From a bacterium (GTDB lineage Bacteria; Zhuqueibacterota; Zhuqueibacteria; Residuimicrobiales; Krinioviventaceae), in the NCBI GenBank assembly GCA_029561455.1, contig JAKQIY010000047.1, positions 126,332 to 190,331 on the forward strand: DNA of 64,000 nt. Direction: 5' to 3'. Shown piece by piece: positions 4,282 through 50,328 of this stretch (position 1 is its first letter; the number at the start of each line of letters is the position of its first letter). The notes beneath the pieces are model-generated. The model made no database searches. It saw only the letters and a list, made by a program, of their open reading frames with translations, and was not told the origin of the DNA. A program made the translations under genes and the position numbers.

Positions 4282-4923
4282 TTATATATTAATGTCGATA
4301 ACTGTGCTGATTTCCAGTGGTGTAATTGCGCCTTCCCTGAGTATACGCGGGGGCGTTTTGGTAATATCAATAACTGTGGACGGCTGACTGGTTAGCGCTT
4401 CGCCGCCGTCAATGATCAGATCGAGCTCGCTGCCAAACTGATCGAAAACCTGCTGCGCTTTTGTTGCCGATGGCTGGCCGGAAATATTGGCGCTGGTGGA
4501 TACAATTGGAAAGCCGGAGATTTTCAACAAAGAGAGGCAGATGGGGTTGTCCGGAATGCGAATGGCGATGGTTTTGGATTTACCAAAGGGGAACTCTTTC
4601 AGAGTGCTGGAGGTTTCAAAAACAATCGTTAACGGTCCGGGCCAAAAATTTTCGATCAGTTTTTCCGCCTCTTCCGGGATCGATTCCACAATGTCGCTGA
4701 TCTGGATAATATCCGCAGCGATGACTATGAGAGCTTTGCCTTTATCACGCTGCTTGATTGTATATATCCGGTTAACGGCTTTATCATCAAAAATGTTGCA
4801 GCCAATGCCATAAACCGTTTCGGTTGGATAGGCGATAACGCCGCCTTTTTGCAATATCTTGGCCGCCCGGAAAATAAGCTCCGGTTCAGGGGACTTTTTA
4901 TTAATGGTAATTATATTATTCAT
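4282..4923 (-). CDS. tsaC: L-threonylcarbamoyladenylate synthase (YrdC/TsaC type)
   Basis: The enzyme makes threonylcarbamoyl-AMP from Thr, bicarbonate and ATP for the t6A37 modification of ANN-decoding tRNAs. The 213-residue protein shows GGVIAYPTETVYGIGC (about 27-42), a KQRDKGKAL segment (about 56-64) and the STSANISG motif (about 145-152), all diagnostic of the YrdC fold. It lacks the extra C-terminal Sua5 domain. A longer frame continues upstream to 5013 but runs inside the neighbouring GT9 gene. The ATG at 4923 has a GGAAG ribosome site and overlaps the GT9 stop codon by one base, so it is chosen as the start. Confidence 0.93.
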   Translation of the reverse strand: MNNIITINKKSPEPELIFRAAKILQKGGVIAYPTETVYGIGCNIFDDKAVNRIYTIKQRDKGKALIVIAADIIQISDIVESIPEEAEKLIENFWPGPLTIVFETSSTLKEFPFGKSKTIAIRIPDNPICLSLLKISGFPIVSTSANISGQPSATKAQQVFDQFGSELDLIIDGGEALTSQPSTVIDITKTPPRILREGAITPLEISTVIDINI

Positions 4924-8102: not shown

Positions 8103-8187
8103 GTTCGTATTGCCGGATGAGTTTAAGACAATTATTCAGGCAAGCCTGCACCAGGTTTCTATTGATTAAGAAATTAGTGAACAGGCA

Positions 8188-8535
8188 TTAATTTAATGCA
8201 TACTCCCTGATGATTTGACACAAAGAATCGATCTGTTTTTTGGTTTTTTCAATTGCGAGCGACAGGTTTTTATTGGTAGTATCAATTTGCACATTTTCAT
8301 ATCTGTTAATATCAGGCGGATTCAGGTATTGAGCAATATCCTGTTGGGTTAATTCATTACCTTTTACCGCTTTACCGAATTCCAGCGCTTTTTCCAGGAT
8401 GAATTGATGCACCAGCATGATCTCGTGTGGTTTCAGATCATCGATCAACGGACTGACAAGCTTGCCATCAAATATACGTTTGATGATTTCCAGTTTCACT
8501 GAAGTGTTGAGTCCGGCTTTAACCGCAACGATCAT
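8188..8535 (-). CDS. Small protein of unknown function at the end of the PATAN operon
   Basis: Not recognised. The 115-residue protein is soluble, with no signal or membrane segment. A GGGGAG ribosome site precedes the ATG and it follows the GTPase-like gene by 18 bases, so it is very likely the last gene of that operon. Its last 40 residues (after YENVQIDTT) look like the closing strand-helix of P-loop kinases of the APS-kinase/AAA_33 type. There is no P-loop and the protein is too short for a whole kinase, so this resemblance is weak. It may be a helical adaptor. Confidence 0.55.
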   Translation of the reverse strand: MIVAVKAGLNTSVKLEIIKRIFDGKLVSPLIDDLKPHEIMLVHQFILEKALEFGKAVKGNELTQQDIAQYLNPPDINRYENVQIDTTNKNLSLAIEKTKKQIDSLCQIIREYALN

Positions 8536-8553
8536 AATGCTCCCCGGTAGTGG

Positions 8554-9063
8554 TTAATTAGCATAATTAATTGCTACATCAATTAGCGATGCAAAAACGG
8601 ATTTTATGCTTGCAACAGATTTGCTGTTGCAAAAAGTAAATTTTTCCTTGCCGGAAAATGAAATATAGGGATCGACAATTGTTTTTTTTATTGGCAAAGG
8701 CTTTTCTTTAATATCGGCGGCAATGATGAGGGGCGCTTCGAAACGGTGGCCGAGGAAATCGATATTTTTTTGGGCAATATCACATGAAGCTTCATCAAAC
8801 CAGTCAAAAACAATAATATACCCCAGCATTTTCCGGGCGATAATATCCCAGGCGATTTTATTATATGCGCCATTGGAACTGACGCCATATAAAAACAGTG
8901 ATAATTCCGGTTCAATTTTCAATTCACCAAAAATAATATCCTGATCCGATTTCATTACCCTGGGACAGGTGGAATACAGAAATGAATCATGTGATGAATT
9001 GGAGGAACCAATGACCAGAATTTCCCCAATTTTTTTTTCAGTATTTTGCATTAATTCAAACAT
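8554..9063 (-). CDS. Pseudo-GTPase: MglA/CvnD-like fold without nucleotide-binding motifs
   Basis: The 169-residue protein follows the pattern of the small bacterial GTPases often annotated ATP/GTP-binding protein (MglA/CvnD-like). It has a first strand EILVIG, then FGEL with LFLYG (switch/G3 region), IARKMLGYIIVFDW, and APLIIAAD (G4 strand). The motifs that bind nucleotide are gone: the P-loop GxxxxGKT reads GSSNSSHD, the G3 DxxGQ reads GVSSNG, and NKxD is absent. The same framework is seen in the C-terminal domain of the 10314-12140 product. It is 15 bases downstream of the second receiver-PATAN gene. A role as a non-catalytic partner is inferred. The start is either the ATG at 9063 or the one at 9051. 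Confidence 0.65.
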   Translation of the reverse strand: MFELMQNTEKKIGEILVIGSSNSSHDSFLYSTCPRVMKSDQDIIFGELKIEPELSLFLYGVSSNGAYNKIAWDIIARKMLGYIIVFDWFDEASCDIAQKNIDFLGHRFEAPLIIAADIKEKPLPIKKTIVDPYISFSGKEKFTFCNSKSVASIKSVFASLIDVAINYAN

Positions 9064-9078
9064 GAAGCCTGATTTTTT

Positions 9079-35547: not shown

Positions 35548-36456
35548 TTAAATTGTGACCCAGCGATACCCGCAGCCCTGGTTAAAGTGAATTACCGGAA
35601 CGTGCGGACAGACGCTGTGCAAATGTTCGCTTAACAAACGCACGCCGTTTTCTTCACTCGTCCCATGATTCAACACCACCAGCGGTATACCGGTGTCTTC
35701 AGCATATACTGTTTGTATCCAGGTGCGGATGCTGTCATCGATAGCAACATAAAAATTGGCGCCCATATTCATAAAATCTATGGGATTGCAACCGCAACCG
35801 GTGCCGATACCAACCCTGGAAACCTGAAAATCCGGGTCGCCGTAAAATTGCACCCCGGTCTGGTTAAACGATTTTAATCGGGCAACAATATATTCCGCCA
35901 TTTTAATTGCAGGCGTTGGTTCAACGTTGTAAACCCGGTAATAGGTATTGCTGTTGTGGAGTTTGTCTTCCGCAAAACCCAGTGCGCGGGCAAAGGCCAG
36001 GGGAACGCCGAATCCGGCAACCGAATCAAGCACATCGTGGCAGCGAATTATGACCAGATCATTCGCCATGATCCACTGCTTTTTTTGTTCAATGGCCTGC
36101 AAATAGGCGGTTTTAGCTTCCGGGCATCCCTGGGCGTATTCCGCATTCACTGCATCAATTTCACGATGATAATAAAAAGTCGGTTCGTGCACGACCATTA
36201 CGTTCACTCCCCCGGCAACCGCCTGGCGCAGCGTTTGCCAATACGGCATCCAGCAGGTACCGATCTTTTTGATCACCGTATCCGGGTTGCCGATAATGAT
36301 CTGGTCTACCGAAGGCTCCGGTATGGGGCGTAGTGAGCGCAGATATTTATGGAGATCTGCGGCGGTTCTTATTTCACCGCCGGCAGCTGGCAGGGAAGAA
36401 GCAAATGCGGCAAGCGCAGCGGCGCCGGTAAGCTGAATAAAGTGTCTTCTTTTCAT
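35548..36456 (-). CDS. Tat-exported NIF3-like (YbgI-type) dinuclear metal protein
   Basis: The 302-residue protein has an N-terminal twin-arginine signal, MKRRHFIQLTGAAALAAF. NIF3-type metal ligands are recognisable: VVHEPTFYYH (about 88-97), RCHDVLDSV (about 138-146) and a C-terminal NHGTSEENGV with the His/Glu pair (about 262-271). NIF3/YbgI proteins are normally cytoplasmic with unresolved function, so a Tat signal is unusual. It lies 30 bases after the gene for a Cys-rich membrane protein and is probably co-transcribed with it. Confidence 0.75.
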   Translation of the reverse strand: MKRRHFIQLTGAAALAAFASSLPAAGGEIRTAADLHKYLRSLRPIPEPSVDQIIIGNPDTVIKKIGTCWMPYWQTLRQAVAGGVNVMVVHEPTFYYHREIDAVNAEYAQGCPEAKTAYLQAIEQKKQWIMANDLVIIRCHDVLDSVAGFGVPLAFARALGFAEDKLHNSNTYYRVYNVEPTPAIKMAEYIVARLKSFNQTGVQFYGDPDFQVSRVGIGTGCGCNPIDFMNMGANFYVAIDDSIRTWIQTVYAEDTGIPLVVLNHGTSEENGVRLLSEHLHSVCPHVPVIHFNQGCGYRWVTI

Positions 36457-36486
36457 AGGTTCCTCTTTATAATAGGATAAGAGAGA

Positions 36487-37032
36487 TTATTTTTTCTTCA
36501 TCCAGGGACAATCTTCTTTTTGCGGGCAATGCGCACAACCATAGATGCGCGATACCAAAGGTAATATAATAAAAGAATTGATAATAAATGCACAATATAA
36601 TATCAGCATAGTTGCATTGTAATTGTTAAACAGAAAGAGCGCCCCGGTAATTAACGGCGCAAACCAGAGCGGGAAAATGACCGGAATGTGTTTTTTGAAT
36701 TTACGCATAAATTGTGTGCCGTCTTTAGCCGGAACGAGTTTGGCGGATATTTGTCCATAACCGCATGGACAGGTACGAGTACCGTAAAAATGGCAAAAAG
36801 GACATATAAAGACAATGAACCACAAAGCTCCGGCTAGTCCGTAGATTACAAAGGTGATTGCAGCAAGCCAGCCCCAAAAGGTAAAACCGAGTCCGACCAA
36901 ATGGATCAAGGCCCCCAAAAGTGTCATAATGATATAAGGCAGATTGTCGATAATTTCCTGTACATGGGAGTATTCCTGCACGGGATGGTAATTTTTACAA
37001 TTTTCCGGTCCATTGTTTTTTTCTTCAATCAT
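36487..37032 (-). CDS. Cys-rich integral membrane protein, unknown
   Basis: This 181-residue protein is not assigned to a family. Four or so membrane segments (about 30-50, 55-78, 117-133, 138-158) alternate with Cys clusters: ICPFCHFYGTRTCPCGYG (about 75-92) between helices and CAHCPQKEDCPW (about 166-177) at the C terminus. The Cys spacing suggests metal or Fe-S binding. It precedes the Tat-exported NIF3-like gene, so the pair may handle a metal centre in the envelope. Confidence 0.65.
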   Translation of the reverse strand: MIEEKNNGPENCKNYHPVQEYSHVQEIIDNLPYIIMTLLGALIHLVGLGFTFWGWLAAITFVIYGLAGALWFIVFICPFCHFYGTRTCPCGYGQISAKLVPAKDGTQFMRKFKKHIPVIFPLWFAPLITGALFLFNNYNATMLILYCAFIINSFIILPLVSRIYGCAHCPQKEDCPWMKKK

Positions 37033-37456
37033 GGTTGATTTTTTCCTTTTTCATAAAGTTGCTCTGATTGTAGCTCGTGTTAACTCGATTCTGTATGCGG
37101 AGAGTAATTCTACCAGAGAATTTACAGTTTTACTCTGTTTGGAACCGGATTGTTCGAATTTTTTTTGCCGGGTAACTAGATCAATATTTATAAGACGGTT
37201 TGAAGAGGATACCGGAAATATTATACCATTTTACCCGGAGCTGTATTGAAAACGCTGATATGAACTGGCGCATATAAATGTAGTAAAGAATATTTTCCTG
37301 ACTTGTCTTCCCGGGTGATGCGGGTAGTTTTGTTTTGCAGCTATAAATGATTATTCTGCGCATCACTTCCCGGAATAACCAGCAGAAGTTATTCTCTATC
37401 TCAAAAAGAGAAGCAAATTTTGGGCAGCTTTAATACAGCTCCGGAAATATGAATGT
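37033..37456. other. Gene-free interval with a MITE-like element
   Basis: No gene is seen. The right half is the inverted-repeat element at 37235-37444. The left half is AT-rich upstream DNA of the Cys-rich membrane protein gene. Confidence 0.6.
37235..37444. repeat. MITE-like element with perfect 13-bp ends (family 1 relative)
   Basis: CCGGAGCTGTATT (37235-37247) and AATACAGCTCCGG (37432-37444) are perfect inverted repeats. The interior has a GTGATGCG/CGCATCAC inner pair. Ends of the form G-CTGTAT link it to family 1, but the interior differs. It is about 210 bases and non-coding. Confidence 0.7.
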
Positions 37457-38371
37457 TTACATCGCCAGATATTTATTCATATTTGTTATTGCTTCGTCGA
37501 TTTCAGCAGGCGTTTTAAAGCCGATCACCACCGCATCGACGCAAGCGAGACCCATGACAAATTTTATGGCCTGTTCCCGGACGGCCGCGTCGGTAAAGGT
37601 GCCGTCGCCCACCAGTTTCATACCGATGATGCCTTTGCCGGATTGATGCATCAAGCTGATCTTTTGAACAACCGCATCCACATCGGCCGGCTGTTCCCAG
37701 GATGCCCCGTCAGGATTATCCATAACGCTGCCTTTATGATTGATGCGCACCAGCCGGACATCGCCCCAGTTAAAGGTAGAAGCCGCCGTTAACGGTTCAA
37801 AACCGTGAATGGAGACGCCGCAGGCCCGGATAATCTGTTTTTCTTTGGCCTCATCAAAAATATCCATCAATTTTTTCTGCTTTTCCACCCAGTCGCCACT
37901 GGTAACGCAGTGGATGAGCATGGAATCGAAATAATCGGTGCCCACTTCTTTGCGGCAGCGGTCAATTTCGCGCATCGGGTCGTCGAACTTACCCCATGAT
38001 AATTTGGACTGGATCTGGATCTTTTCACGATCGACATTTTTTATGGCTTTACCGAGCATTTCGTGCATTTCGCCATAGTTATCGGCCGTATCAAAAAAGG
38101 TAATGCCCTGCTCGAGGGCGTATTTTACCAGGTTATTAAAGCCTTCCTGTCCCAATTCGCGCTGCACTCTGCCGGAGTGACTACCGGTACCCATACCCAG
38201 TCGCGATACAGAAATACCGGACTGACCTAGAAGTACCTTGTCCGTGGCGGTTCTTTTTGGTTTATCAGCGCCGGCATGCAACAGACCGGGGATAACAGTT
38301 ACGGTTGCGGCAGCACCGGCGGTAATTTTTAAAAAATTCCGCCTGCTCAATTTATCCTTTTGTGGTGTCAT
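37457..38371 (-). CDS. Tat-exported aldo/keto reductase (2 of 3)
   Basis: The 304-residue AKR-fold reductase has a clear twin-arginine signal SRRNFLKITAGAAATVTV. Catalytic residues are the Asp and Tyr of FFDTADNYGEMHE (about 95-107), Lys in IQSKLSWG and His in MLIHCV. FVMGLACVDAVVIGFKTPAEID near the C terminus is the NADP-binding end of the barrel. It is likely periplasmic, with substrate unknown. It stands alone, 36 bases after the DjlA-like gene on the same strand. Confidence 0.85.
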   Translation of the reverse strand: MTPQKDKLSRRNFLKITAGAAATVTVIPGLLHAGADKPKRTATDKVLLGQSGISVSRLGMGTGSHSGRVQRELGQEGFNNLVKYALEQGITFFDTADNYGEMHEMLGKAIKNVDREKIQIQSKLSWGKFDDPMREIDRCRKEVGTDYFDSMLIHCVTSGDWVEKQKKLMDIFDEAKEKQIIRACGVSIHGFEPLTAASTFNWGDVRLVRINHKGSVMDNPDGASWEQPADVDAVVQKISLMHQSGKGIIGMKLVGDGTFTDAAVREQAIKFVMGLACVDAVVIGFKTPAEIDEAITNMNKYLAM

Positions 38372-38407
38372 ATAGTCCTTTCTTAATATAAAATCAGTAT
38401 ATATGCC

Positions 38408-39160
38408 TTAAGCGGCATTGCGTTCTTTCATGATTTTTTCAAAAGCTTCCTGAATTTCCTGGAATTTTTCAGTGGCTATTTTAATAAATTCTTCAGGCAA
38501 TCCTTTGGAAATGACCCGGTCCGGATGGTGTTCCAGAACCAGTTGACGGTATTTCTTTTTAATTACCTCATTGCTGTCGGTACGGCTAACGCCAAGTATA
38601 GCATAATATTTGTCGTTATTTTGAATATAAATAGATTTTATTCGTTCATACTCTTTCAGATCGATAGTAAAAATAAGCGCCGCCCTTTTGAGCATTTTTT
38701 CTTCATTTTCATGCAGATTGCCGTCCGCTGCGGCAATGCGGATCAACAATTCCAGCATTGAATTTAATAAATGGACATCGTTGTGAAACAGTTCATAGAA
38801 TTGTTCGGCGAACATGTCAAAGGAATCGTTGGAGAGCTTGGCGGTATTGAAAATTTTAATAGCCATTTCCCTGGCATCATTGTCCAGGTGTAATGATTGC
38901 CGCATAAAGTTTTCAACCACCTGAATTTCCTCTTTGGAGACCCGGCCGTCGGCGCGGGCGAGTTTGGCAAGCAGGGAAAAAGTGGCTACAAAAAAAACTG
39001 CCTGGCTTTGTTCATGAGGGGTATAACCATAGCTTTTCCTGCCGGTGGTTTCTCCCGGTTTGTCGAACTGGTGCCCGATGACAGCGCCAAACACTGCGCC
39101 CAGCGGCCCTCCCAATGCAAAGCCGATTGTGCCGCCAATCGCTTTTCCTAACCAACTCAT
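38408..39160 (-). CDS. djlA: DjlA-like co-chaperone (TerB-like plus J domain)
   Basis: The 250-residue protein has a Gly-rich N-terminal segment that could insert in the membrane (about 3-28). A TerB-like helical metal/acid-rich domain follows (about 55-175, with ARADGRVSKEEI and AAADGNLHENEE), then a C-terminal J domain (about 180-245) with the HPD motif in LEHHPDR, which stimulates DnaK ATPase. This is the DjlA order and length. An AGGAG ribosome site precedes the ATG. It is divergent from the ECF sigma operon. Confidence 0.88.
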   Translation of the reverse strand: MSWLGKAIGGTIGFALGGPLGAVFGAVIGHQFDKPGETTGRKSYGYTPHEQSQAVFFVATFSLLAKLARADGRVSKEEIQVVENFMRQSLHLDNDAREMAIKIFNTAKLSNDSFDMFAEQFYELFHNDVHLLNSMLELLIRIAAADGNLHENEEKMLKRAALIFTIDLKEYERIKSIYIQNNDKYYAILGVSRTDSNEVIKKKYRQLVLEHHPDRVISKGLPEEFIKIATEKFQEIQEAFEKIMKERNAA

Positions 39161-39340
39161 CCGTTCTCCTGTTTCAGGTTGATTATTCTATTATATCCTG
39201 AAAATATAGGAATTAAGGCACAAATTCAAGTATTTTTTTCCGGGGAGTTGAACAGGGAATCATTGTTATGTATTGTTCTAGTCTTTGCAATAAAAATCGT
39301 GAACGACAGGGGTGGAGATGACGATTTTTAATTTTTATTT

Positions 39341-39985
39341 TTGAATTATAATTGTAATTTTTATGTTGAACTGTTTAAACCGGGAATAAACCCGGATTTG
39401 GATTGTCTAATTTTTAAAGGAAAAAACCGTATAAACAAGACCGATGAACAATTATTAAATCTTGCCCGGAAAGGAGATGCAGAGTCCTTCTCTGCGCTTG
39501 TAAAGCGCTATGAAACCCAGGTAGCTGCCACAGTTATTGGCATGCTGGGTCATTGTGCAGAGGCGGATGATGTCGGTCAGGAAACATTTATTCGTTTTTA
39601 CAAAGCGCTGCATGATTTTCGTGGAGAAGCGGCTTTGGGTACTTATTTAACGCGCATTGCGATCAACCTGTCGTTGAACGAAATAAAGCGTCGCCGCCGG
39701 CGGACCTGGTTTTTCCCTGAATCTACCGATGCTGTTCATCATCTACCGGATGAAAACAAGCCTGAAGATATTGAAATGATAAAGCTGGTACACAAGGCAA
39801 TCGGGCAACTGGATTCTGATTTTCGCGCTGTAGTAGTATTGCGCCTGATTGACGGTTATTCCACCAGGGAAACCGCGGAAATATTAAAAATACCGGAAGG
39901 CACTGTGTTGTCGCGGCTGGCGCGCGCTCAGAAAAAAATGCAAACAATTCTTTCACCTTTTATGGGAGAGAAAAGTGATGACTAG
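39341..39985 (+). CDS. ECF-type RNA polymerase sigma factor
   Basis: The sigma-70 family protein has region 2 (DDVGQETFIRFYKALHDF, about 87-104) and region 4 helix-turn-helix (YSTRETAEILKIPEGTVLSRLARAQ, about 171-195). The start is uncertain. The open frame begins at a TTG (39341) without a ribosome site. Homology would start near NKTDEQLLNLARKGD, and AAAGGA sits 8-9 bases before an ATA codon at 39431, so the true start may be that non-standard codon or a mutated ATG. It overlaps the anti-sigma-like gene, indicating a coupled pair. Confidence 0.88.
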   Translation: MNYNCNFYVELFKPGINPDLDCLIFKGKNRINKTDEQLLNLARKGDAESFSALVKRYETQVAATVIGMLGHCAEADDVGQETFIRFYKALHDFRGEAALGTYLTRIAINLSLNEIKRRRRRTWFFPESTDAVHHLPDENKPEDIEMIKLVHKAIGQLDSDFRAVVVLRLIDGYSTRETAEILKIPEGTVLSRLARAQKKMQTILSPFMGEKSDD

Positions 39986-40427
39986 AAAAAAAATTGATAA
40001 AAAAATAACCGATATACTATATCGTTCATTTGATGATGAATTAACAGCCAAAGAACAGGAGTTTTTGGCTAATGCTCTTGAACATTCGGAAGAATTACGC
40101 CGGGAGCATCAACAAATTGTCGCCATGCGCCGGATGATCTCCGAAAAAGGCGGGGGCCGGTTCGAACCATTTTTCAGCGCCCGGGTGATGCAGCGGGTTA
40201 ATGCCATTCGCAAAAGCCCGGACCGGGCGGCCGAGTTTTTCGAATCTTTGGCATATATGTTCAAGCGGGTCGCACTGGTGGGCGGCATTGCGGTTATTAT
40301 ACTCTTTTCTATTCATTTTATACAAAAAGAGGATAATACTCACCTGGCCAGTGAAACTGTATCGGAAATGACGCTCGATGATGTATTGGGATCGGCGTTT
40401 GCGTCTTCATTGGAGGAAATTTTATGA
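39978..40427 (+). CDS. Membrane anti-sigma-factor-like protein
   Basis: The 149-residue protein has a cytoplasmic helical N-terminal half (about 1-85), one membrane segment (about 96-114, VALVGGIAVIILFSIHFI) and a short outer tail. It has no HxxxCxxC zinc motif. Position directly after, and overlapping, the sigma gene is typical of a cognate anti-sigma factor. ATG 39978 is preferred over GTG 39975 because GGGAGAG lies at a better distance. Its stop overlaps the next ATG (ATGA). Confidence 0.75.
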   Translation: MTRKKIDKKITDILYRSFDDELTAKEQEFLANALEHSEELRREHQQIVAMRRMISEKGGGRFEPFFSARVMQRVNAIRKSPDRAAEFFESLAYMFKRVALVGGIAVIILFSIHFIQKEDNTHLASETVSEMTLDDVLGSAFASSLEEIL

Positions 40428-40900
40428 ATGTACAATTGAAATCAGCCATTATTATTCTGGCAACGCTGTTTATCGGTATGGCTATAGGCGCGCTGGGAAT
40501 GAAACAGCTCTATAAACCGGGCAGACCCCGGTTTGCCGATTTTCGCGAACGCGATGCTTTTATGCATCTTCATGAAGACATTATCCAACCCAACAGCGAG
40601 GCGCAACGCGATTCGATTCACCATGTCCTGACGGAATTTTTACCCAAATTTCAAAAGTTAACGGAACAACATCGCAGCGATATCCGGGCATTAGTCGATT
40701 CCATGCAAACGCAACTGGAGCCAATCTTAACCAAAGAACAAATCCGGCGTTTGAAGGAAAGAAGGAATAATATGCCTCCCGGTCCCGGCGCTCCGCCACT
40801 GGGCGTTCGTGGGCCCTGGCCGCCGCAAAGAATGCCCCCCGGCGCTCCACCGGACAGCCTGCGGCCGCGTTGGCCGGACAGAGACCGAAAACCGGAATGA
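40424..40900 (+). CDS. Spy/CpxP-like envelope protein with Pro-rich tail
   Basis: The 158-residue protein has an N-terminal anchor or signal (about 8-27), a helical hairpin-like region (about 45-115) with LEPILTKEQIRRLKER resembling the LTxxQ motif of Spy/CpxP/CnrX-type proteins, and a Pro/Gly/Arg-rich tail (about 116-158). Such proteins act as periplasmic chaperones or metal sensors that control an ECF sigma pair. It overlaps the anti-sigma gene by four bases, so it is probably the third part of the sensing complex. Confidence 0.7.
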   Translation: MNVQLKSAIIILATLFIGMAIGALGMKQLYKPGRPRFADFRERDAFMHLHEDIIQPNSEAQRDSIHHVLTEFLPKFQKLTEQHRSDIRALVDSMQTQLEPILTKEQIRRLKERRNNMPPGPGAPPLGVRGPWPPQRMPPGAPPDSLRPRWPDRDRKPE

Positions 40901-40966
40901 ACTTTGATCTCCGGTTGTCTAACTGCCAAGATAGTGAGCAGTGGATAAACCAGAATGGAGATCAAT

Positions 40967-42433
40967 ATGAAAACAAAGTTTTTTGATGTATTATTGGCAG
41001 TATTAATTACCCTTGTTCTGACGATATTTATTAAAAGTAGCTACAGTCAATGGGAAGAACCGAGTCCGGGGGATATGCAATTCATGCCCAAACCCCCGGG
41101 CAAGGGATTCTTGCACGAAATGTTGAGCGGGGAACAACAAGCCATACTTGATAGTACGATTGCACAGTTTGAAAAGAGCGGCAAGTCTCATGCGCAGATC
41201 AAAGTCGTAGTTGATTCCCTGTTTGCAGACTGGGGTATTGAACGCCCCGAACCGCCGCATGGCCCGTTAGGCGGCGGTTTGATGGAACAGTTAAGCGCTG
41301 AACAACGCGTCGAGTTGGAAACTACTATCGAACAATTACGCAAGACCGGTGCGAGCCGTGACGAGATACACCAGGCTGTTGAGGCGCTGCTTTCCAAATG
41401 GGGTGTAGAACGCCCCGAACCCCCGCAAGGGCCTTTGGGCGGCGGTATGATGGAACAGTTAAGCGCTGAACAACGCGCCGAGTTTGAAACTACCATCGAA
41501 CAGTTACGCAAGACCGATACGAGTCGTGACGAGATACACCTGGCTGTTGAGTCGCTGTTTTCCAAATGGGGGATAGAACGCCCCGAGCCCCCGCATGGCC
41601 CGTTTGGCGGCGGATTGATGGAACAATTAAGCGAGCGACAACGCGCCGAGTTGGAAAATACCATCGAACAGTTACGCAAGACCGGCACAAGCCGCGACGA
41701 GATTCACCAGGCGGTTGAGGCGCTGCTTTCCAAATGGGGTGTTGAACGCCCTGAACCCCCGCATGGCCCGTTTGGCGGCGGCCTGATGGCGCAATTAAGC
41801 GAGCAACAACGCGCCGAATTGGAAAATACCATTAAACAATTACGCGACGCCGGTAAAATGCGGGAAGAAGTACGGGCTGCAGTTGATGCCCTGCTGGACA
41901 AATGGGGTATTGAACGCCCCGAACCTCCGCTTAGGCAGCTTTCACGCGAGATAATGGAACAATTAACGACTGAACAAAAACAAAAGATTCACACAAAGGT
42001 TCAGGACTTGAAAGAGAAGGGGACGTCCCCGGAAGAAATCCGTCAAGCTGTAAATGTCCTGTTGCTGGAATTTGGCATTACCCCGCCAAAAACGGAGAAT
42101 GAAAGTAATAATGAATCCGATGATACTAGTTCGAACAGTACCGGTGTAAACAATACTATAATAGCCGGCAGTGTTAATTTCCCCAATCCTTTCAATCCGC
42201 ATACCCGCATCAGTTATGCCCTGGCCAAGCCGGAAAATGTCAAAATTCAAGTTTTTAATATCAACGGGCAACTGGTGCGAACCTTGATCGATTCTTACCA
42301 GAGCGGTGGTAATTATGCCTGTATGTGGAACGGCGTTTTGGAAAATGGCGAACCGGCGCCAAGCGGATTGTATTTTTATCGCATCGATGCCGGTGGGGAA
42401 CAACTGGTACGACGCATGACTCTGACCAAGTAG
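40967..42433 (+). CDS. T9SS-secreted protein with tandem 56-residue repeats
   Basis: The 488-residue protein has a signal peptide (about 1-25). It then has about six helical units of 56 residues, the middle four nearly identical and spaced exactly 168 bases apart in DNA (unit starts 41237, 41405, 41573, 41741, with a divergent one at 41909). Each unit has ERPEPPHGPxGGG, then MEQLSxxQRAELE and LRKTGxSRDEI, and ends SKWG. The LSxxQ helices resemble the LTxxQ region of the Spy-like neighbour. The C terminus (about 400-488) is a T9SS sorting domain with NFPNPFNPHTRI and SGLYFYRI. ATG 40967 is chosen over 40955, since TGGAG fits it. Confidence 0.82.
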   Translation: MKTKFFDVLLAVLITLVLTIFIKSSYSQWEEPSPGDMQFMPKPPGKGFLHEMLSGEQQAILDSTIAQFEKSGKSHAQIKVVVDSLFADWGIERPEPPHGPLGGGLMEQLSAEQRVELETTIEQLRKTGASRDEIHQAVEALLSKWGVERPEPPQGPLGGGMMEQLSAEQRAEFETTIEQLRKTDTSRDEIHLAVESLFSKWGIERPEPPHGPFGGGLMEQLSERQRAELENTIEQLRKTGTSRDEIHQAVEALLSKWGVERPEPPHGPFGGGLMAQLSEQQRAELENTIKQLRDAGKMREEVRAAVDALLDKWGIERPEPPLRQLSREIMEQLTTEQKQKIHTKVQDLKEKGTSPEEIRQAVNVLLLEFGITPPKTENESNNESDDTSSNSTGVNNTIIAGSVNFPNPFNPHTRISYALAKPENVKIQVFNINGQLVRTLIDSYQSGGNYACMWNGVLENGEPAPSGLYFYRIDAGGEQLVRRMTLTK

Positions 42434-42502
42434 AAAATATACCGGGTTCGCTGGAATTAAAGAAACACCGGTCATACCGGTTCAATAAAAAGGAGGTAGC
42501 AA

Positions 42503-43327
42503 GTGATAAAAAGAAATTTTGTTGTATTATTAGCCCTGTTTATGTGCGGAGCCGTAATGATTTATAACACAGCTGCTAGTGAAAAGCCGGTCGGCGCTAT
42601 TATTATCGATGGCAAGGATAATGACTGGAGCGATTTGATGACCACATATATTGAAGACCTGGACGGGATGATGGGAGTAGCACATGATGATTCATCGCTG
42701 ATCCTGATGTTTCGTTTTCCGGAACAGGACCTGACCCGCAAGGTGATGATGGGCGGAGCAACCCTGTGGTGGCATCATGAAGGCAAAAAGAAAAAGGAAT
42801 ATGGCATTAAATTCCCGATGCAGCGCCCGCAGCCCGGTTCAAGGCCGGACAGGATGGAACGAACCAATGACCGGGATACTGGCCGGGAAAGAACTAAGGA
42901 GTCGCCCTCTTTTCCGATGGAATTGATATCGCCGGTACTTTGTATTGAAAAAACCGGAGAAAAACTGCCCTGGAGCGATGTAAATGGCATCGCCGCTTCA
43001 GCTGGTATGAAAAAAGGCGAATTGTGTTTCGAGTTCAGGATACCTATCCGGCCCGATAACCCTTATTCCCTGGTGAGCAAGCCCGGAAAAAATTTTAAAG
43101 TATGCCTGGAATTGGGTGAAAAAGTGGATATGTCGTCCATGCGTCCGCCAATGGATGAAGGCGGCGCACCGGGCGGTGGAATGGGCGGCGGTCGCAGCGG
43201 CAGAGGCGGCGGCGATGGGATGGGGCCTGGCGGTATGGGTGGGCCCGGTGGCCCGGGAGGAGGACCAGCAGATATGCAAGATATGTTTAAACCGGAAGAA
43301 GTGTGGGTTACTGTGCAATTACCATAA
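42503..43327 (+). CDS. Exported DOMON/CBM9-like protein with Gly-rich loop
   Basis: The 274-residue protein starts with GTG at 42503, 6 bases after AAGGAGG. It has a signal peptide (about 1-24) and a beta-sandwich core resembling the CBM9/DOMON heme- or sugar-binding fold (IDGKDNDWSDL, about 35-45; later FEFRIPI). A Gly/Met-rich segment (about 219-252) precedes the final strand EEVWVTVQLP. It closes the ECF operon, and a strong terminator follows. Function is unknown. The Met-, Asp- and Gly-rich composition could suit metal binding. Confidence 0.7.
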   Translation: MIKRNFVVLLALFMCGAVMIYNTAASEKPVGAIIIDGKDNDWSDLMTTYIEDLDGMMGVAHDDSSLILMFRFPEQDLTRKVMMGGATLWWHHEGKKKKEYGIKFPMQRPQPGSRPDRMERTNDRDTGRERTKESPSFPMELISPVLCIEKTGEKLPWSDVNGIAASAGMKKGELCFEFRIPIRPDNPYSLVSKPGKNFKVCLELGEKVDMSSMRPPMDEGGAPGGGMGGGRSGRGGGDGMGPGGMGGPGGPGGGPADMQDMFKPEEVWVTVQLP

Positions 43328-43408
43328 CCCTGAAAGAATGATGGGGGTGTGTTTTAAGCCGGCAGTGAAAAAGTTTTAACCGAACAGATAGCTGATTAGA
43401 CTGAATAT

Positions 43409-43446
43409 AAAAAAAGGACGATTGCTAATTACAATCGTCCTTTTTT
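43409..43446. terminator. Strong bidirectional terminator
   Basis: AAAAAAGGACGATTG (43409-43424) pairs with CAATCGTCCTTTTTT (43432-43446) around a 7-base loop. It lies between the end of the ECF operon (plus) and the end of the lipoprotein gene (minus) and should serve both. Confidence 0.9.
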
Positions 43447-43517
43447 GTGTTGAATATGAAATTAAAGCAAAGTTATATCCGGCGTAACAAATCCGGGTAA
43501 ATTTGCCAGAATATATT

Positions 43518-44090
43518 CTACTGCGCCACTGCGGTGGTGGTATCGGCGGCTACGCTGTCAACTGCTGCGACAGCTGCTTCAACAATACCGGCGGCATATT
43601 GAACAACGACAGTATAATTGCGTTGTTCGGGAGCCAAATTTTCCTGCAGCAGGGGTTGATCTTGCGGCACGACAACGCTGTCTGCCGGAGCCCATTCGGA
43701 GCTGACCAGACACAGATCTTTGCCCTGGTGAAAGCCGGTAAAAGAGCCTTGCGGGCCATCGGCCTGGTACAAGCTATCTGCAACCCAGCCCTTTGCAACC
43801 AGTAATTTTTTTAACGAATCGGCTTTAACAAAAGCATCTGCTAAAGTTACGCCATTGCCGGTAACTTTGGCTTCAAAGCCATTCAGGCTGTCGCCTTTAA
43901 CCGGGTCAATAACCAGCAGTTTTTGAGTAGCCGGCTGAATTGTAAACAATGCCTGCATATCCTGAACAATTGCAGTAAAAGCCGCCGGTTCTTCAACCGG
44001 AGCCGGCTGTTGTTTACAGCCATTCATCAATACCAGTACAAGTGTGAATAAACCCATCACCACCACGCCAAAACGGGCAGTTCTTAACAT
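43518..44090 (-). CDS. Lipoprotein of unknown function
   Basis: The 190-residue protein has a type II signal peptide ending in the lipobox LMNGC (Cys25), so it should be lipid-anchored. The mature part has a compact region (about 40-140) and an Ala/Val-rich tail (about 165-190). No family recognised. Single gene; a long AT-rich gap lies upstream. Confidence 0.7.
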   Translation of the reverse strand: MLRTARFGVVVMGLFTLVLVLMNGCKQQPAPVEEPAAFTAIVQDMQALFTIQPATQKLLVIDPVKGDSLNGFEAKVTGNGVTLADAFVKADSLKKLLVAKGWVADSLYQADGPQGSFTGFHQGKDLCLVSSEWAPADSVVVPQDQPLLQENLAPEQRNYTVVVQYAAGIVEAAVAAVDSVAADTTTAVAQ

Positions 44091-44800
44091 GTAACATCTC
44101 CTTATAAAATAATGAAATACGGGAAAGGATTAGTTTAATCATTTCCATAAATGTGCAAGTATATTCGGGCATTAATTTATATAAAAAAAACTTATTTCAA
44201 AGAGAAAAGTGTAAAAAATTGTAAAAATTTTTAAATACAAGGGAAAACAGGCCAATATTGTATGTGGTGGATAATAATCAAATTCTATATGAAAAATACA
44301 AGTAATGAAAAGAGTTTTTTATTACATTCCATACTATTTGCGGAGTGATGGTATTAAAAGGAAAAAATCGGTAAATAGTAGCACACTTGCAGAAAGATAT
44401 CGGTCAAATACTATCTTCTTTTGCCGGATTATTATTATCTTTGGGATTTTATGGAAAGAGGTTATACTTTCCGCAGCGCTCAAATAAGAAAAAAATCTTT
44501 AAATGATATTTGATACAGTTTATAAAATACAACCTGAATTTCTAAAATGAACAATTACTTTTTTTAACACTGATTTTTTTGATAATAAACATGTAGGATG
44601 GGCAATGTCTGATACTATACATAAAATATTGATTAATTTGGTATTAATGGCTAAGAAATGCCGGAAAAGTAATAGTTGGACATTGCCCATCGTTTTTTAA
44701 AAATCATACTCGCAACTTTTTTACTCTCAATTTAGATGTTCAGGTACAATATTATATCAGAATTATATTTGAGCGCTGCTGGGGGGTAACTAGACAACGA
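44091..44800. other. Gene-free AT-rich interval
   Basis: It holds the upstream region of the lipoprotein gene, AT-rich DNA and one copy of repeat family 3 (44593-44691). A 60-codon plus frame at 44305-44487 has no ribosome site or recognisable product and is not called. Confidence 0.6.
44593..44691. repeat. Repeat family 3 palindrome (GTAGGATGGGCA), copy 2
   Basis: GTAGGATGGGCAATGTC at the left faces GGACATTGCCCATC at the right. Its length and ends match 33792-33889 in reverse orientation, while the AT-rich centre has diverged. Confidence 0.75.
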
Positions 44801-45754
44801 TCATACATTAGTAAAGAGCGGCTCCAGACCTGCGGCAGTTTGCCGAAGCAGTTCAATTTCAGCTTTAGTTACAGGAGCGGCGTTGGCGGCTATTTCCAGC
44901 GCCAGCGGGAAAAACATTTGCTCACCTGGAGGAATTGCCGCGGTTACGCCCTGCGCCAGGGTAAAGCGCAATGCCAGGTCCGCCAGTTTTTTATCATCAA
45001 CCGGAATGGGATTGTACCAGCATTTCTTAAAAGGCTTGTGTGCATCTTGAGCAATGCTGCTGTGCGCCAGCCCTTTGAGCGCTAAAATTCCCATGCCTTT
45101 TTCCCGTGCTTGGGCAATTACTGTCGGGCCGAAATTGCCTTTTAACCAGGCGGCAAAGTTGATCGGGAACAGGATCGTGTCGAAAGCAAACTTTTCCATA
45201 GCCAACAGGGCGGCTTGTTCCGAATGCGCCGAAAAGCCGAGAAAGCGTACCTTACCATCCTGTTTAGCTTTAACAAACACTTCCATAGCGCCGTTGGGTC
45301 CAAAGGCGGTTTCCACATCCTGAATAGTTGTCAGGGCGTGCAGTTGGTATAGGTCGAAATGGTCGGTTTGCATCATGGCGAGGGATTCGTGCAGTTCTTT
45401 TTCAGCGCCTTCTTTGCTGCGTTCCCCGGTTTTACAGGCCAGAAATGAACGGTTACGCCAGGGCTTTAGCGCCGGGCCAAGTTTTTCCTGGGCGTTGCCG
45501 TAAGACGGCGCCACATCATAGTAATTGATACCGCGGGCAAAGGCCTGGGCTACAGCATTGTTGGCGGAGGTCTGTTCCTCATTCATGACCAGGATGCCGC
45601 CAAAGCCGATCACTGACAGGCTTTCACCGGTTGCGCCCAGCGTTCTTTTGGGAAGAGGCTGTAATGACGAGCTAGATGAACAATTCAGTAAAGCGGACAA
45701 GGTTAACATGCTGCCTCCGGCTACGGTTGATTTAATAAAAGTGCGTCTGTTCAT
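44801..45754 (-). CDS. Tat-exported lipoprotein aldo/keto reductase (3 of 3)
   Basis: The 317-residue AKR-fold reductase has a twin-arginine start (MNRRTFIKSTVAGGS) and a lipobox-like LLNC before a Ser run, suggesting a Tat-exported lipoprotein. Catalytic residues are the Asp and Tyr of YYDVAPSYG, Lys in FLACKTG and His in YQLHAL. ATG 45754 is chosen because TGGAG lies 6 bases before it; upstream ATGs at 45766 and 45784 lack one. Single gene. The substrate is unknown. Confidence 0.83.
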   Translation of the reverse strand: MNRRTFIKSTVAGGSMLTLSALLNCSSSSSLQPLPKRTLGATGESLSVIGFGGILVMNEEQTSANNAVAQAFARGINYYDVAPSYGNAQEKLGPALKPWRNRSFLACKTGERSKEGAEKELHESLAMMQTDHFDLYQLHALTTIQDVETAFGPNGAMEVFVKAKQDGKVRFLGFSAHSEQAALLAMEKFAFDTILFPINFAAWLKGNFGPTVIAQAREKGMGILALKGLAHSSIAQDAHKPFKKCWYNPIPVDDKKLADLALRFTLAQGVTAAIPPGEQMFFPLALEIAANAAPVTKAEIELLRQTAAGLEPLFTNV

Positions 45755-45928
45755 ATTATTCTCCATTTTAATAGCTTTGTGCAAGTGAATCCCGGGCCGG
45801 TTTTATGCGTAAAATATACAGCTCAGGTTTGATGACAAAGCATTATGAAAAATCAATTGCATAAAAGCTCCATTCATTTTATATTAACAATCAAAACGGA
45901 TTTTTTATTTTAGTTACAGCAGAAAAGG

Positions 45929-47020
45929 ATGTTTGTTTTGTTCAGAAAAATAAAACGTGCATACCAGATATTAACCAGCGACCTCAGTTTTGCCGAGATG
46001 GAGCATCTTTTTCGAACCGATGTACCGGGCATATTCGAGTTCTATACCCAGGAGATGCGAAAATACCCCCAAAGCCGTAGGGGTTTGCGGCGGATGCTGA
46101 GTTTTATAAAGAACCTGTTCATTGCCTTTATTCTAAAGTTACGGCCGGCGCGGCGGGTGGTTTACTTTTTTGCCCTGTATTTTTTTATTTCCGGCATTTG
46201 GACCCGCAATTTTTTTCATTGTTTTATCGGCTTTGCCATAGTCAATATTTTATTGGCGGCGGAACTTGCCGATAAAATTACCGCCAAAGACGAATTGGAT
46301 GTGGCGCGCAGAATTCAAACCCGCCTATTGCCCGAAAAAGCGCCGCTGAATGCTTTTTATGATATTGTCTTTTTTACCGAGCCGGCCCGCGAGGTCGGCG
46401 GCGATTTTTGTGATTTTATTGAGGGGAAACCGGTTAACGATAAGCTCAAAGTACTCATTGCGGATATATCGGGCAAGGGCATGGAAGCGGCTTTATATAT
46501 GGTGCAGGTGCATACGATAATGACCAGCCTGAAAACTGAAACCGGCATTAAACAATACCTGGTAGATTTGAATGACAAACTCGCACCGGTGCTGCCTCCG
46601 CAGGTGTTTATGACCTCTTCAATTATCGAATTGATCAATAACAATGAAATAAACCTTTGCCGCGCCGGACATTTACCGGTTCTGCATTATTCTGCGGTTA
46701 ACCACACCTGCACACAACTGGTGCCGCGCGGACTGGGAATCGGTTTAACGCCCAATTCGTTATTTGCCAATAACCTTGAAGCGCTTAATCTGAAAACGGT
46801 AAAAGGTGATATTATTGTTTTGTATACGGATGGACTGATCGAAGCCATGAATCAGTATAAAAAAGAGTTTGGCGAAGAACGGCTGGAAAAGATAGTTTGC
46901 GCCAATGCCGATCTTGACGCTGCTGATATTCAAAATATGATTTTAAAGGGAATTGCCGGTTTTCGCGGCGCTGCCGTACCCCATGACGATATGACCCTGA
47001 TTGTAATGAAACACAAATAA
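45929..47020 (+). CDS. RsbU-type PP2C (SpoIIE-family) serine phosphatase
   Basis: The 363-residue protein has a helical N-terminal region, two adjacent membrane segments (about 75-112), then a linker helix DELDVARRIQTRLLPEKAP that is typical before RsbU-type phosphatase domains. The PP2C domain (about 145-362) keeps the metal-binding Asp residues: EVGGDFCDF, ADISGKG, YTDGLIEA and HDDMTLIV. It should dephosphorylate an anti-sigma antagonist; no such partner or kinase is in the window. The ATG at 45929 sits right on the AAGG; the TTG at 45938 has better spacing and may be the true start. Confidence 0.88.
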   Translation: MFVLFRKIKRAYQILTSDLSFAEMEHLFRTDVPGIFEFYTQEMRKYPQSRRGLRRMLSFIKNLFIAFILKLRPARRVVYFFALYFFISGIWTRNFFHCFIGFAIVNILLAAELADKITAKDELDVARRIQTRLLPEKAPLNAFYDIVFFTEPAREVGGDFCDFIEGKPVNDKLKVLIADISGKGMEAALYMVQVHTIMTSLKTETGIKQYLVDLNDKLAPVLPPQVFMTSSIIELINNNEINLCRAGHLPVLHYSAVNHTCTQLVPRGLGIGLTPNSLFANNLEALNLKTVKGDIIVLYTDGLIEAMNQYKKEFGEERLEKIVCANADLDAADIQNMILKGIAGFRGAAVPHDDMTLIVMKHK

Positions 47021-47069: not shown

Positions 47070-47945
47070 TTATTTTACGATTTGCAAATTATATTTTGAC
47101 CCACACAGTGAGCCGAACAGGCCGATACCGCCCTGTATACCGCCGGATATCTCCGGGTGCTCTTTGGTCATATAATGGTGCATATTGTCGTCAATCGCCA
47201 GTACGCTGAGCGTATTGGAGCCATAGAATACGATCATGGATGCATACCAATAGATGGTGTTTTTATTCTCAAAATCGGGAGCCGTCAGGTCGGACATTTT
47301 GACCAGCGCAAAAATTCGGCGTGGTTCACCGTTGCCGCCGCTGTCGTATTCATCCTGACTTTGCGGATATTTGTCGTTACCAAACGGGTAGATATATTCC
47401 GCATTGTTCCAGGCCTCGTTGCAGTACATTTCCACCATAATCAACTGGTCGGGGTTTTCGTTTTGTACAAAAATCGGCTTTCTATACCCCAGGTTGGTAT
47501 CGTTTTCAACATTGGGTGAATCGGTTTTCAGGTCGCTTTCGATCTCCAACTCTGCCGGCACTGTAGTTACGGCGGTCACGGTTTCCGAGCCGGTTTTTAC
47601 TGTTAGCGTATAGGTGGACCTGGGTTTGATCAAGAGGGCGCTGTTATAATAGTAGCCCGGTTTAGTAGTAGATTCCACCAATTGGGTTACAACTCCACTG
47701 GCCGATTCGGTCAGGGTTACATTGGCGCCCTTGATAGCCGCATTCGCCGGATCATAATATTCGGTAACCGGACGGGTATAGGAGATCATAATAGCATGAT
47801 TCTCTGTCAGATTCTCGTTTCCCCAGAGATAGCCGAATACGGTAACTTCTTTCTGATATTCGGGTGCGGCGGGATTCTTTTCACAGCCGCTCAGCAACAA
47901 TGTAATACTCAGTAAGGCAAAGATCAGTTTATATATTAATTTCAT
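47070..47945 (-). CDS. DUF4249-type lipoprotein, partner of the TonB receptor
   Basis: The 291-residue lipoprotein has a type II signal ending LLLSGC (Cys21). The body has Ig-like beta strands, including GANVTLTESASGVVT and YTLTVKTGSETVTAVTTVP, as in DUF4249, a family regularly encoded next to TonB-dependent receptors in Bacteroidota. It follows the receptor gene by 13 bases. The pair probably forms an uptake complex in the outer membrane; its substrate is unknown. Confidence 0.8.
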   Translation of the reverse strand: MKLIYKLIFALLSITLLLSGCEKNPAAPEYQKEVTVFGYLWGNENLTENHAIMISYTRPVTEYYDPANAAIKGANVTLTESASGVVTQLVESTTKPGYYYNSALLIKPRSTYTLTVKTGSETVTAVTTVPAELEIESDLKTDSPNVENDTNLGYRKPIFVQNENPDQLIMVEMYCNEAWNNAEYIYPFGNDKYPQSQDEYDSGGNGEPRRIFALVKMSDLTAPDFENKNTIYWYASMIVFYGSNTLSVLAIDDNMHHYMTKEHPEISGGIQGGIGLFGSLCGSKYNLQIVK

Positions 47946-47958
47946 AGTTTAGCTCCTG

Positions 47959-50184
47959 TTAAAAGTGTATGGTATAGCCAAAGGTTGGCAAAAACGGGAT
48001 CTGGCTGAAATCTTCAACCTCGGCGGGGTTTTTCGCCAGGTCATAATCCCGGAACCAGACATTTTTATGGTTATATACGTTAATGATCTGGATATAGGCT
48101 TCCATCGGCAGCTTTGTAAACATCAGGTGGGTGTTATAAAACAACCCAATATCCAGCCTGTGATAATCCGGCAGGCGGTAAAAATTCATTTTACCATCCA
48201 GGGTTTTGTTGTAAATCCGGCCTTCCTGGTCCGCAACGGCATAACGGGCGGTGGCTTCGGTATAGGGTTGGCCGGAGCCGTATTTAAAAGCGATATTCAG
48301 GCGCCATTTTTTACTGAGGCGGTAATCCTCGATGAGCGTAAAGGTATGGCGACGATCATAGGTAGGATAATATTCCAGCCCGTAGTTGAAATTATCGACT
48401 TGTTTTTTGGTCCAGGCCAGCGAATAACCCAGCCAGCCTTCAAATTTCCACAAGTTGTTGCGCAGGTAAACATCCATACCATAGGCATTGCCGGTGCCGC
48501 TCAAAAAGTTTTGCGCTGCGGTCTGATTTTCAATATCTTCATCGGCTGCGCGATAGGTGCGGTATTCGGCGATGTTCAGGTACTTTTTATAATAGCCTTC
48601 AAGGCTGATGGCAAAGGTTCTCTTGTTGTCATAATTAAAGCCCAATATATAATGATCGGCTTTGCCCGGTTTAAAGGTTTTGTCGACCGGAAACCACATG
48701 TCCGCAAAACTCATCCCGCCTTGCTGCACCAGGTTCAGGAATTGGTGATAGCGGCCGGTACTGGCGGTGACGTTGATTTCATCTGTGATGATACGTTTTA
48801 GCGAAACGCGGGGATCGAAACGAACGTAATTGCCGTCGGTGTAGTGATCGACCCTGATACCGGTTTGCAAAATGGTGAGCGGGGTAATGCGGTAATTATC
48901 CTGCAGGAACAGGCAGTTATAATTGCCTTCGAATGAATTCAGATAATCAGTATCGACAACTCGGTATTTCAGATCAAAATCCACAAATTTGGTTTCAAAG
49001 CCAAAATCCATGGAATGATTGCTGGTGGGTGTATAGGTCAGCATGCCTTTAAGAGCCACATCCGACACCTGGTTTTTGATGCCGAATTCAACTTCATCAA
49101 ATTTTACCTTGGTATCGCTGTCGAAGCGGCTGCCGGCAAACACAAAGTGAGAAAAGAGTCGGCTGCTAAACAGGTGTGTCCACTGGCTGGAAAAGGTTTT
49201 ATTACCCCAGTCCAGTTTAATATCCGTGCCGCCGCTGGAGAGGTCGAGAACGTCGTTGCCGGCATAAAAGCTGATGCTGGCCTGGTTGTTTGGGTCAATA
49301 TCCCAGTTGAACTTGGCGTGACCGTCGTAAAAATAGTAGGGCAGGTCAAAGTTCGCCAGTTTTTCCGCCAGTTCCAGGTAGGTCCTTCTGCCGGAAACCA
49401 TCCATGAACCATGTTTCCACGGCCCTTCCAGGGTGGTGCTGGCGCTGAGCAGGCTGAGACGGGCTACACCCTGAAACTCTTCGCGGTTACCTTCTTTATT
49501 CACCACATTCAACACCGAGGAGAGACGACCACCATATTGCGAGGGGTAGCCTCCCTTGAGCAGTTCAACGGATTTGACCGCATCGGTATTAAAGGTGCTG
49601 AAAAAACCGAACATGTGATTGGGGTTGTAAACATCGATATGATCGAGCAGGATCAGGTTCTGATCCGGGCTGCCGCCACGCACATATAAACCGGCGGAGA
49701 AATCGGACAAGGTAGCAACGCCGGGCAGCATTTGTAATGAACGGAAGAGGTCGGCTTCGACCACGGCCGGAATTTTCATAAGCTGTGGCACCTGCATGGC
49801 GATCTGGCTCGGTTTAATATCCAGTTCGCGTTTATCGCGCTCCGCTTCCACAACTACATCCTGCATCTGGATCGCTTCCACTTCCAATTCGGCGTCCAGG
49901 GTCAGGTCGTCGCCGTTGATAATAGTTACATTCTTGATTTCGGTTTTAAAGCCGATGTACCGGAAGCAGACTTGATACGTTCCCGGCGACAGCGTGGGAA
50001 GGACGTAATAGCCCTTCATGTTGGTAGTGGTGCCGATGTTGGTGTCTTTGATCCAGACATTGCCCATTATTACCGGTTCTTTGTTGGCCTTTTCACGGAC
50101 AAACCCATGGATGGTGCCGGCCAGGAGGGAACCGCTTTGCAATACAATTAAAAGGATCAAAAGGATCAGTTTTTTCATGAACAT
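47959..50184 (-). CDS. TonB-dependent receptor with carboxypeptidase-like N-terminal domain
   Basis: The 741-residue protein has a signal peptide (about 1-22), a CarboxypepD_reg-like beta-sandwich (about 24-105, with GTIHGFVREKANKEPV), a plug domain (about 110-235, with FRSLQMLPGVA and SAGLYVRGGSPDQNLILLD), and a 22-strand-type barrel to the C-terminal aromatic residue (YTIHF). This is the SusC-like/TBDR layout but shorter than SusC. It imports a ligand using TonB energy. The start at 50184 has GGGAG at good distance; ATG 50178 is possible. DUF4249 follows in the same unit. Confidence 0.92.
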   Translation of the reverse strand: MFMKKLILLILLIVLQSGSLLAGTIHGFVREKANKEPVIMGNVWIKDTNIGTTTNMKGYYVLPTLSPGTYQVCFRYIGFKTEIKNVTIINGDDLTLDAELEVEAIQMQDVVVEAERDKRELDIKPSQIAMQVPQLMKIPAVVEADLFRSLQMLPGVATLSDFSAGLYVRGGSPDQNLILLDHIDVYNPNHMFGFFSTFNTDAVKSVELLKGGYPSQYGGRLSSVLNVVNKEGNREEFQGVARLSLLSASTTLEGPWKHGSWMVSGRRTYLELAEKLANFDLPYYFYDGHAKFNWDIDPNNQASISFYAGNDVLDLSSGGTDIKLDWGNKTFSSQWTHLFSSRLFSHFVFAGSRFDSDTKVKFDEVEFGIKNQVSDVALKGMLTYTPTSNHSMDFGFETKFVDFDLKYRVVDTDYLNSFEGNYNCLFLQDNYRITPLTILQTGIRVDHYTDGNYVRFDPRVSLKRIITDEINVTASTGRYHQFLNLVQQGGMSFADMWFPVDKTFKPGKADHYILGFNYDNKRTFAISLEGYYKKYLNIAEYRTYRAADEDIENQTAAQNFLSGTGNAYGMDVYLRNNLWKFEGWLGYSLAWTKKQVDNFNYGLEYYPTYDRRHTFTLIEDYRLSKKWRLNIAFKYGSGQPYTEATARYAVADQEGRIYNKTLDGKMNFYRLPDYHRLDIGLFYNTHLMFTKLPMEAYIQIINVYNHKNVWFRDYDLAKNPAEVEDFSQIPFLPTFGYTIHF

Positions 50185-50328
50185 ATTACTCCCATAATTT
50201 GATAAATTGCTACCTTAATTAATGTTACTCTTACGCAGTAAATACGATCAAGTTACAGTTTACACTTGATGAAGATCACAAAATTTTTTTTCTTTTGGAG
50301 TTTAACCGGAGTTTTATGGAAATCGTGC

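Follow-up and report, generated by a model that had tools for sequence, protein, structure and literature searches.

A candidate envelope-stress ECF sigma factor operon with a predicted T9SS-exported string of Spy-like hairpins

The window analysed here, a stretch of 64,000 nucleotides, is part of a 5.85-Mb genome (contig C36) and carries at 39341-43327 a compact run of five genes, the features of which are collected in Table 1. The order read earlier from the letters alone (ECF sigma factor, anti-sigma-like protein, Spy/CnrX-like protein, repeat protein and CBM9-like Gly-rich exported protein) was confirmed, as were the overlaps among the first three genes (39975/39985 for genes 1/2 and 40424/40427 for genes 2/3). 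Gaps of 66 bp and 69 bp separate the repeat gene from the Spy-like gene before it and the CBM9-like gene after it. The cluster ends at a terminator-like 9-bp hairpin with T6, which was read from the sequence and is absent from the terminator/promoter scanner output. An Rfam search of 36000-46000 gave no match, and a sigma-70 promoter scan was no richer than shuffles (9 vs 6.7). Matches over the Pfam or NCBIfam cut-offs were obtained for the sigma factor and for the T9SS tail (NCBIfam), and the anti-sigma-like, Spy-like and CBM9-like proteins had none individually. Both the repeats and the CBM9-like gene occur at a single place in the genome.

Table 1. Features of the gene cluster, in positions of the window.
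Feature	Position	Strand	Basis or remark
ECF sigma factor	39341..39985	+	Pfam Sigma70_r2, r4_2; NCBIfam sigma70-ECF
Putative ECF promoter P1, GGAAT-N17-GTCTAA, before sigma gene	39383..39410	+	motif match
Anti-sigma-like protein: cytoplasmic N-part, one TM, no zinc motif	39978..40427	+	sequence, profile alignment
Membrane-anchored Spy/CnrX-like protein, short form, two LTxxQ motifs	40424..40900	+	N-terminal TM; family profile
Putative ECF promoter P2, GGAAT-N18-GTCTAA, before repeat gene	40894..40922	+	overlaps Spy-like gene stop
T9SS-exported repeat protein: signal peptide, six 56-residue units, T9SS type A tail	40967..42433	+	
Six tandem 168-bp units: two-helix hairpin and Gly/Pro/His/Met/Arg-rich linker	41111..42118	+	
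T9SS sorting domain	42179..42418	+	TIGR04183; residues 409-488, counted in the ORF that starts at 40955
CBM9/DOMON-like exported protein, Gly-rich tail	42503..43327	+	
Intrinsic terminator-like hairpin and T-run, cluster end	43416..43446	+	sequence

The first product matched Pfam Sigma70_r2 (1.3e-14) and r4_2 (2.2e-11) and scored 88.6 bits with NCBIfam sigma70-ECF (cut-off 42.9); it has the sigma2 and sigma4 domains and the adjoining anti-sigma gene that mark an ECF sigma factor. The TTG start at 39341 lies 5' of putative promoter P1 and is probably unused; the true start is probably at about 39432. No in-frame ATG, GTG or TTG is found in 39411-39470, between the putative −10 element of P1 and sigma region 2; an ATA that follows an AAAGGA-like site there is conserved in a relative of the same genus and may be the start codon. 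The anti-sigma-like protein had no Pfam or NCBIfam match near cut-off; in a profile alignment it pairs with anti-sigma proteins of the zinc type that occupy the same slot in related operons.

Taken alone, the Spy/CnrX-like protein of the window falls below the Pfam Metal_resist cut-off (E=0.87, 10.2 bits vs 29.2). The proteins of this slot align as a single family, however, and the family profile connects it to same-slot proteins that pass the cut-off, the long forms in loci L103 and L104 being Metal_resist at 5.5e-21 and 3.3e-22. Among the 16 short sensors, the glutamine of the first LTxxQ and one aspartate are kept in all 16, and the second LTxEQ is also kept. AlphaFold gave a TM helix and four further helices (mean pLDDT 55.7), which is no more than suggestive. 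Foldseek returned no match to this model at E<=0.001, and in a VIA comparison with the same model Spy chains reached Z 3.7-4.8, a level that bundles unrelated to Spy attained as well.

The fourth gene, whose ATG follows a Shine-Dalgarno-like GGAG, encodes six units at exact 56-residue spacing (TRF: period 168 bp, score 889, 4.2 copies). The T9SS tail assigned to it from the sequence was confirmed by TIGR04183 (33.4 bits vs cut-off 23), with Pfam PF18962 at 26.2 bits, slightly below its cut-off of 27. The genome encodes about 150 T9SS tails and an SprA translocon gene (SprA_N 149 bits; 0 of 14 control genomes). The protein has what is expected of T9SS type A cargo: a signal peptide (judged by eye), the C-terminal sorting domain shared by such cargo, and a translocon in its own genome. 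The tail is found in 21 of 25 repeat proteins, and one of the four without it is cut by a contig end. AlphaFold suggests two helices in each unit, with linkers of pLDDT <50 and a pTM of 0.29.

The arrangement recalls CnrYXH of Cupriavidus metallidurans, the same trio of sigma factor (CnrH), membrane anti-sigma (CnrY) and membrane-anchored helical sensor (CnrX), in which CnrX binds Co/Ni and switches CnrY, releasing CnrH (PMC4598750). In the window, by contrast, the sigma gene comes first, the downstream cargo is exported by the T9SS, and the anti-sigma aligns with zinc-type proteins as noted above. A metal response of the CnrYXH type, with the sensor binding metal and exported His/Met-rich linkers sequestering it at the surface, would agree with the Metal_resist sensors of L103/L104 and with linkers of 6.6% His (2.1% in other ORFs) and 7.2% Met (2.4%). 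However, the enrichment in the linkers extends to Gly, Pro and Arg, and the window linker has at most one His per unit. The short sensors, unlike CnrX, show no conserved metal site: judged by the conservation of columns in their own alignment, Cys and Met stay below half in every column and the His maximum is 9/16. The linked neighbours described below are of general efflux types (MacAB, ABC, AcrB-family), and no metal ATPase was recognised among them. The sequence-only reading had offered an envelope-stress or a metal response; the metal half was not supported, His and Met being enriched in linkers only, and we consider it quite unlikely.

That reading had also likened the helices of the repeats to the LTxxQ helix of the sensor. 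When the unit profile was compared by hhalign with family profiles, the Spy-like family (here 20 slot proteins only, without repeat proteins) scored 81% and the anti-sigma family 50%, against 0.3% for the sigma and 0.2% for the CBM9-like family, and at most 1.3% was seen among the 12 listed of 40 column shuffles. Against single ORFs the median was 19.6 for 28 Spy-family members and 10.3 for 274 others, the top non-Spy ORF being the CBM9-like protein of L103, which itself has an LTEEQ helix. The likeness is thus above background; it is, however, almost confined to the LTxxQ helix, the second helix of the unit (GAxREEIxxAVxxLLxxWGI) having no counterpart in the sensor, and common descent is unproven. 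The proposed structural comparison of the units with Spy-type folds yielded no significant fold match (Foldseek with a three-unit model, none at E<=0.001). Taken at full length, the repeat protein scores over the cut-off of Metal_resist (36.8 vs 29.2), and also over those of Med26 and DUF1722.

Could the repeats instead have no kinship with the sensor and form a surface adhesin or a protein of the matrix, merely co-regulated, with the LTxxQ start as a common helix cap? Single units matched WHEP-TRS in 14 of 45 cases and LTXXQ in 8 of 45 (best 0.002), which would suit such a protein, as would the second helix. In a PDB search with the unit profile designed helical repeats came top, and Spy (E=0.12) stood beside the EF-hand proteins troponin C and centrin, which match the same first columns; the Spy match is therefore unusable as proof of kinship. 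On the other hand, when repeat proteins are set aside, nearly all the ORFs of these loci that match the unit profile best are Spy-family, and plain multi-LTxxQ proteins hold the repeat-protein slot in related operons (L098). On balance, we regard the adhesin explanation as unlikely, and descent of the unit from the sensor as plausible on these alignments.

Conservation of the locus was then examined. A profile of the six units found repeats in 18 of 147 genomes. With a profile of 45 units, 17 of the 82 genomes from the phylum were positive, as were 16 of 387 from a broader set and 4 of 5 from the phylum to which G131 belongs. Loci named outside KSB1 are from Latescibacterota and 'Patescibacteria' MAGs. 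After removal of duplicates 25 repeat loci were left, 22 of them assessable upstream and three at a contig edge (L075, L087, L088). A search for the gene order, as the sequence-only reading had proposed, showed that sigma, anti-sigma and Spy-like genes precede the repeat gene on the same strand in 15 of the 22, with at least one further phylum represented (the window, L073, L074, L076, L078, L079, L081, L082, L085, L086, L089, L165, L166, L168 and L169; in L086 a 1035-aa gene is inserted). The full set is absent from L077, L080, L083, L084, L116, L117 and L167. The CBM9-like gene is more widespread than the repeats (40 of 147 genomes) and lies directly 3' of the repeat gene in the window, L073, L074, L081, L082, L086 and L165. 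Pfam CBM9_1 matches one of 19 members of its family (1.7e-4), and the window protein alone has no match.

Some variants of the locus were also seen. In L081, L082, L083, L077, L086, L165 and L104 a DUF5659-like protein of about 78 aa is encoded ahead of the repeat gene or of the slot that this gene would occupy. In L104 the slot itself is occupied by a His/Gly-rich protein with a T9SS tail (8291-9070, minus strand). In L117/L118, from 'Patescibacteria' MAGs, a gene with three copies of a shorter unit and no T9SS tail (7764-8258, plus strand) follows genes for an ECF-like sigma factor and a membrane protein.

Alignment of the regions 5' of the sigma genes revealed, a short way before the conserved start, GGGAAT...TTGTCTAA. 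The strict pattern GGAAT-N16-19-GTC[ATC]AA occurs 41 times in 673,980 bases of these loci (duplicate loci included), against 3.0 in mononucleotide shuffles. In the 64-kb window it occurs exactly twice, at 39383 and 40894, with 0.59 expected per 64 kb from Markov-1 samples. Within 500 nt 5' of the first ATG, the motif was found for 16 of 22 sigma genes, 12 of 23 repeat genes, 4 of 29 CBM9-like genes and 2 of 259 other ORFs of at least 150 aa from the same loci, both of the last being Spy-like genes directly before a CBM9-like gene. Fisher p values against the other ORFs are 2e-19, 3e-13 and 1e-3, respectively, and overstate the significance because the loci are related. With an alternative start rule and 700 nt, 12 of 25 repeat genes have the motif, three having <150 nt upstream. 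It also precedes repeat genes without an adjoining sigma set (L077, L083). The 11 of 23 repeat loci without it include L165, whose sigma gene likewise lacks it; the other sigma genes without it are those of L103, L093, L104, L116 and L094, and the three sigma genes paired with a zinc-motif anti-sigma are all among these six.

The sigma gene thus has its own conserved −35/−10-type motif, as expected of autoregulation at the sequence level. Since the motif precedes the repeat gene as well as the sigma gene, the former has its own putative promoter, apparently one of the same sigma factor, and common control of the two genes by one motif is suggested. Separate promoters together with the lack of a shared response had been named beforehand as refuting the idea; of these two, a separate promoter-like site does exist at the repeat gene, but it is of the same type. 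The classical ECF boxes are AAC and CGT, and autoregulation is common among such factors (PMC8103513); GGAAT/GTC is a variant of these boxes, and we infer that the sigma factor of the window reads it.

Over the whole genome a tighter pattern was only moderately specific (8 matches vs 2 in the reversed control). Besides P1 and P2, one match precedes an operon for an ABC ATPase, a 1133-aa protein and TolC-, HlyD- and AcrB-type proteins, one a TonB-like/ExbB pair and one a lipoprotein-like gene; the remaining three lie inside or away from ORFs. The second gene of the ABC/TolC/HlyD/AcrB operon (G000:C29 near 394505, L213) ends in a Golvesin_C domain. Eight genomes with repeat loci gave 36 matches (10 in the reversed control), the six of these in which the repeat gene adjoins the sigma set 32 (9), and six same-order genomes without repeats 6 (1). 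The motif is too unspecific genome-wide and cannot alone name members of the regulon, and other ECF factors of the genome might read such sites.

An efflux link was also seen in related operons. That of L165 comprises sigma, anti-sigma, Metal_resist-like sensor, DUF5659-like, repeat, CBM9-like, TolC, MacA and MacB genes, and its MacA (4313-5800, minus strand) contains one in-frame repeat unit after the HlyD domains (E 7.6e-15), to which matches of the window and other repeat proteins with MacA are due. The operon of L098 ends in MacA-MacB. A broader reading would have the sigma factor direct T9SS export of a multivalent chain built from the hairpin of its own Spy-type sensor, so that chaperone or sponge function would reach beyond the periplasm to the cell surface; with the same hairpin spliced into the MacA of a relative, a single module would connect sensing with efflux and with display at the surface. 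As a whole we consider this reading doubtful.

Taken together, a regulon with export is well supported at the level of sequence, and we consider it rather probable that the locus encodes an autoregulated envelope-stress ECF regulon which displays Spy-like hairpins, strung together, at the cell surface. In the resting state the sigma factor would be bound by the one-TM anti-sigma; the membrane-anchored Spy/CnrX-like protein would sense periplasmic stress and relay it to the anti-sigma. The freed sigma factor would then use promoters of the observed type GGAAT-N17/18-GTC(T/A)AA, P1 serving sigma, anti-sigma and sensor with read-through to the rest, and P2 serving the repeat and CBM9-like proteins. 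The T9SS would carry the repeat protein across the outer membrane, presumably to the surface, as a flexible string of six predicted LTxxQ hairpins. In what is the least certain step, the repeats would most likely bind misfolded protein or toxic amphipathic compounds there in a multivalent, Spy-like manner, hypothetically as a surface chaperone or sponge, beside efflux pumps of the same response.

Spy/CpxP proteins are periplasmic chaperones of envelope-stress responses, and provide feedback in the Cpx response. The repeats could accordingly be pictured as a decoy which, in transit through the periplasm, competes for the ligand of the sensor or for the anti-sigma before export and so ends the response. 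Sensor and repeats do have the same motif helix and the same promoter type; the T9SS tail, however, speaks for export, and the decoy appears very improbable. As for the surface-displayed hairpin string that we prefer, the Spy/CpxP (LTXXQ) proteins are likewise LTxxQ-started helical hairpins under envelope-stress control, but here the units are tandem two-helix units of about 45 residues with flexible linkers, an outer-surface sorting tail and an ECF-type motif.

Known envelope-stress responses have their effects in the periplasm and at pumps. Here an apparent stress-sigma motif is kept, across KSB1 and one or more further phyla, before a predicted surface-exported, sensor-like repeat protein. 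If this reading is true, stress proteostasis or compound binding would reach beyond the outer membrane, the T9SS would gain a role in stress response, and the uncultured group KSB1 would have a predicted regulon with promoter motif and targets. In literature searches that covered few subscription papers, neither a description of the operon nor a stress-sigma-controlled Spy-like repeat cargo of the T9SS was found. Finally, DUF4249 and TonB-receptor-like genes are found in the window at 47073-50214 on the minus strand, and in L074, L087 and L108 a pair of this kind directly follows the repeat gene or the CBM9-like gene.
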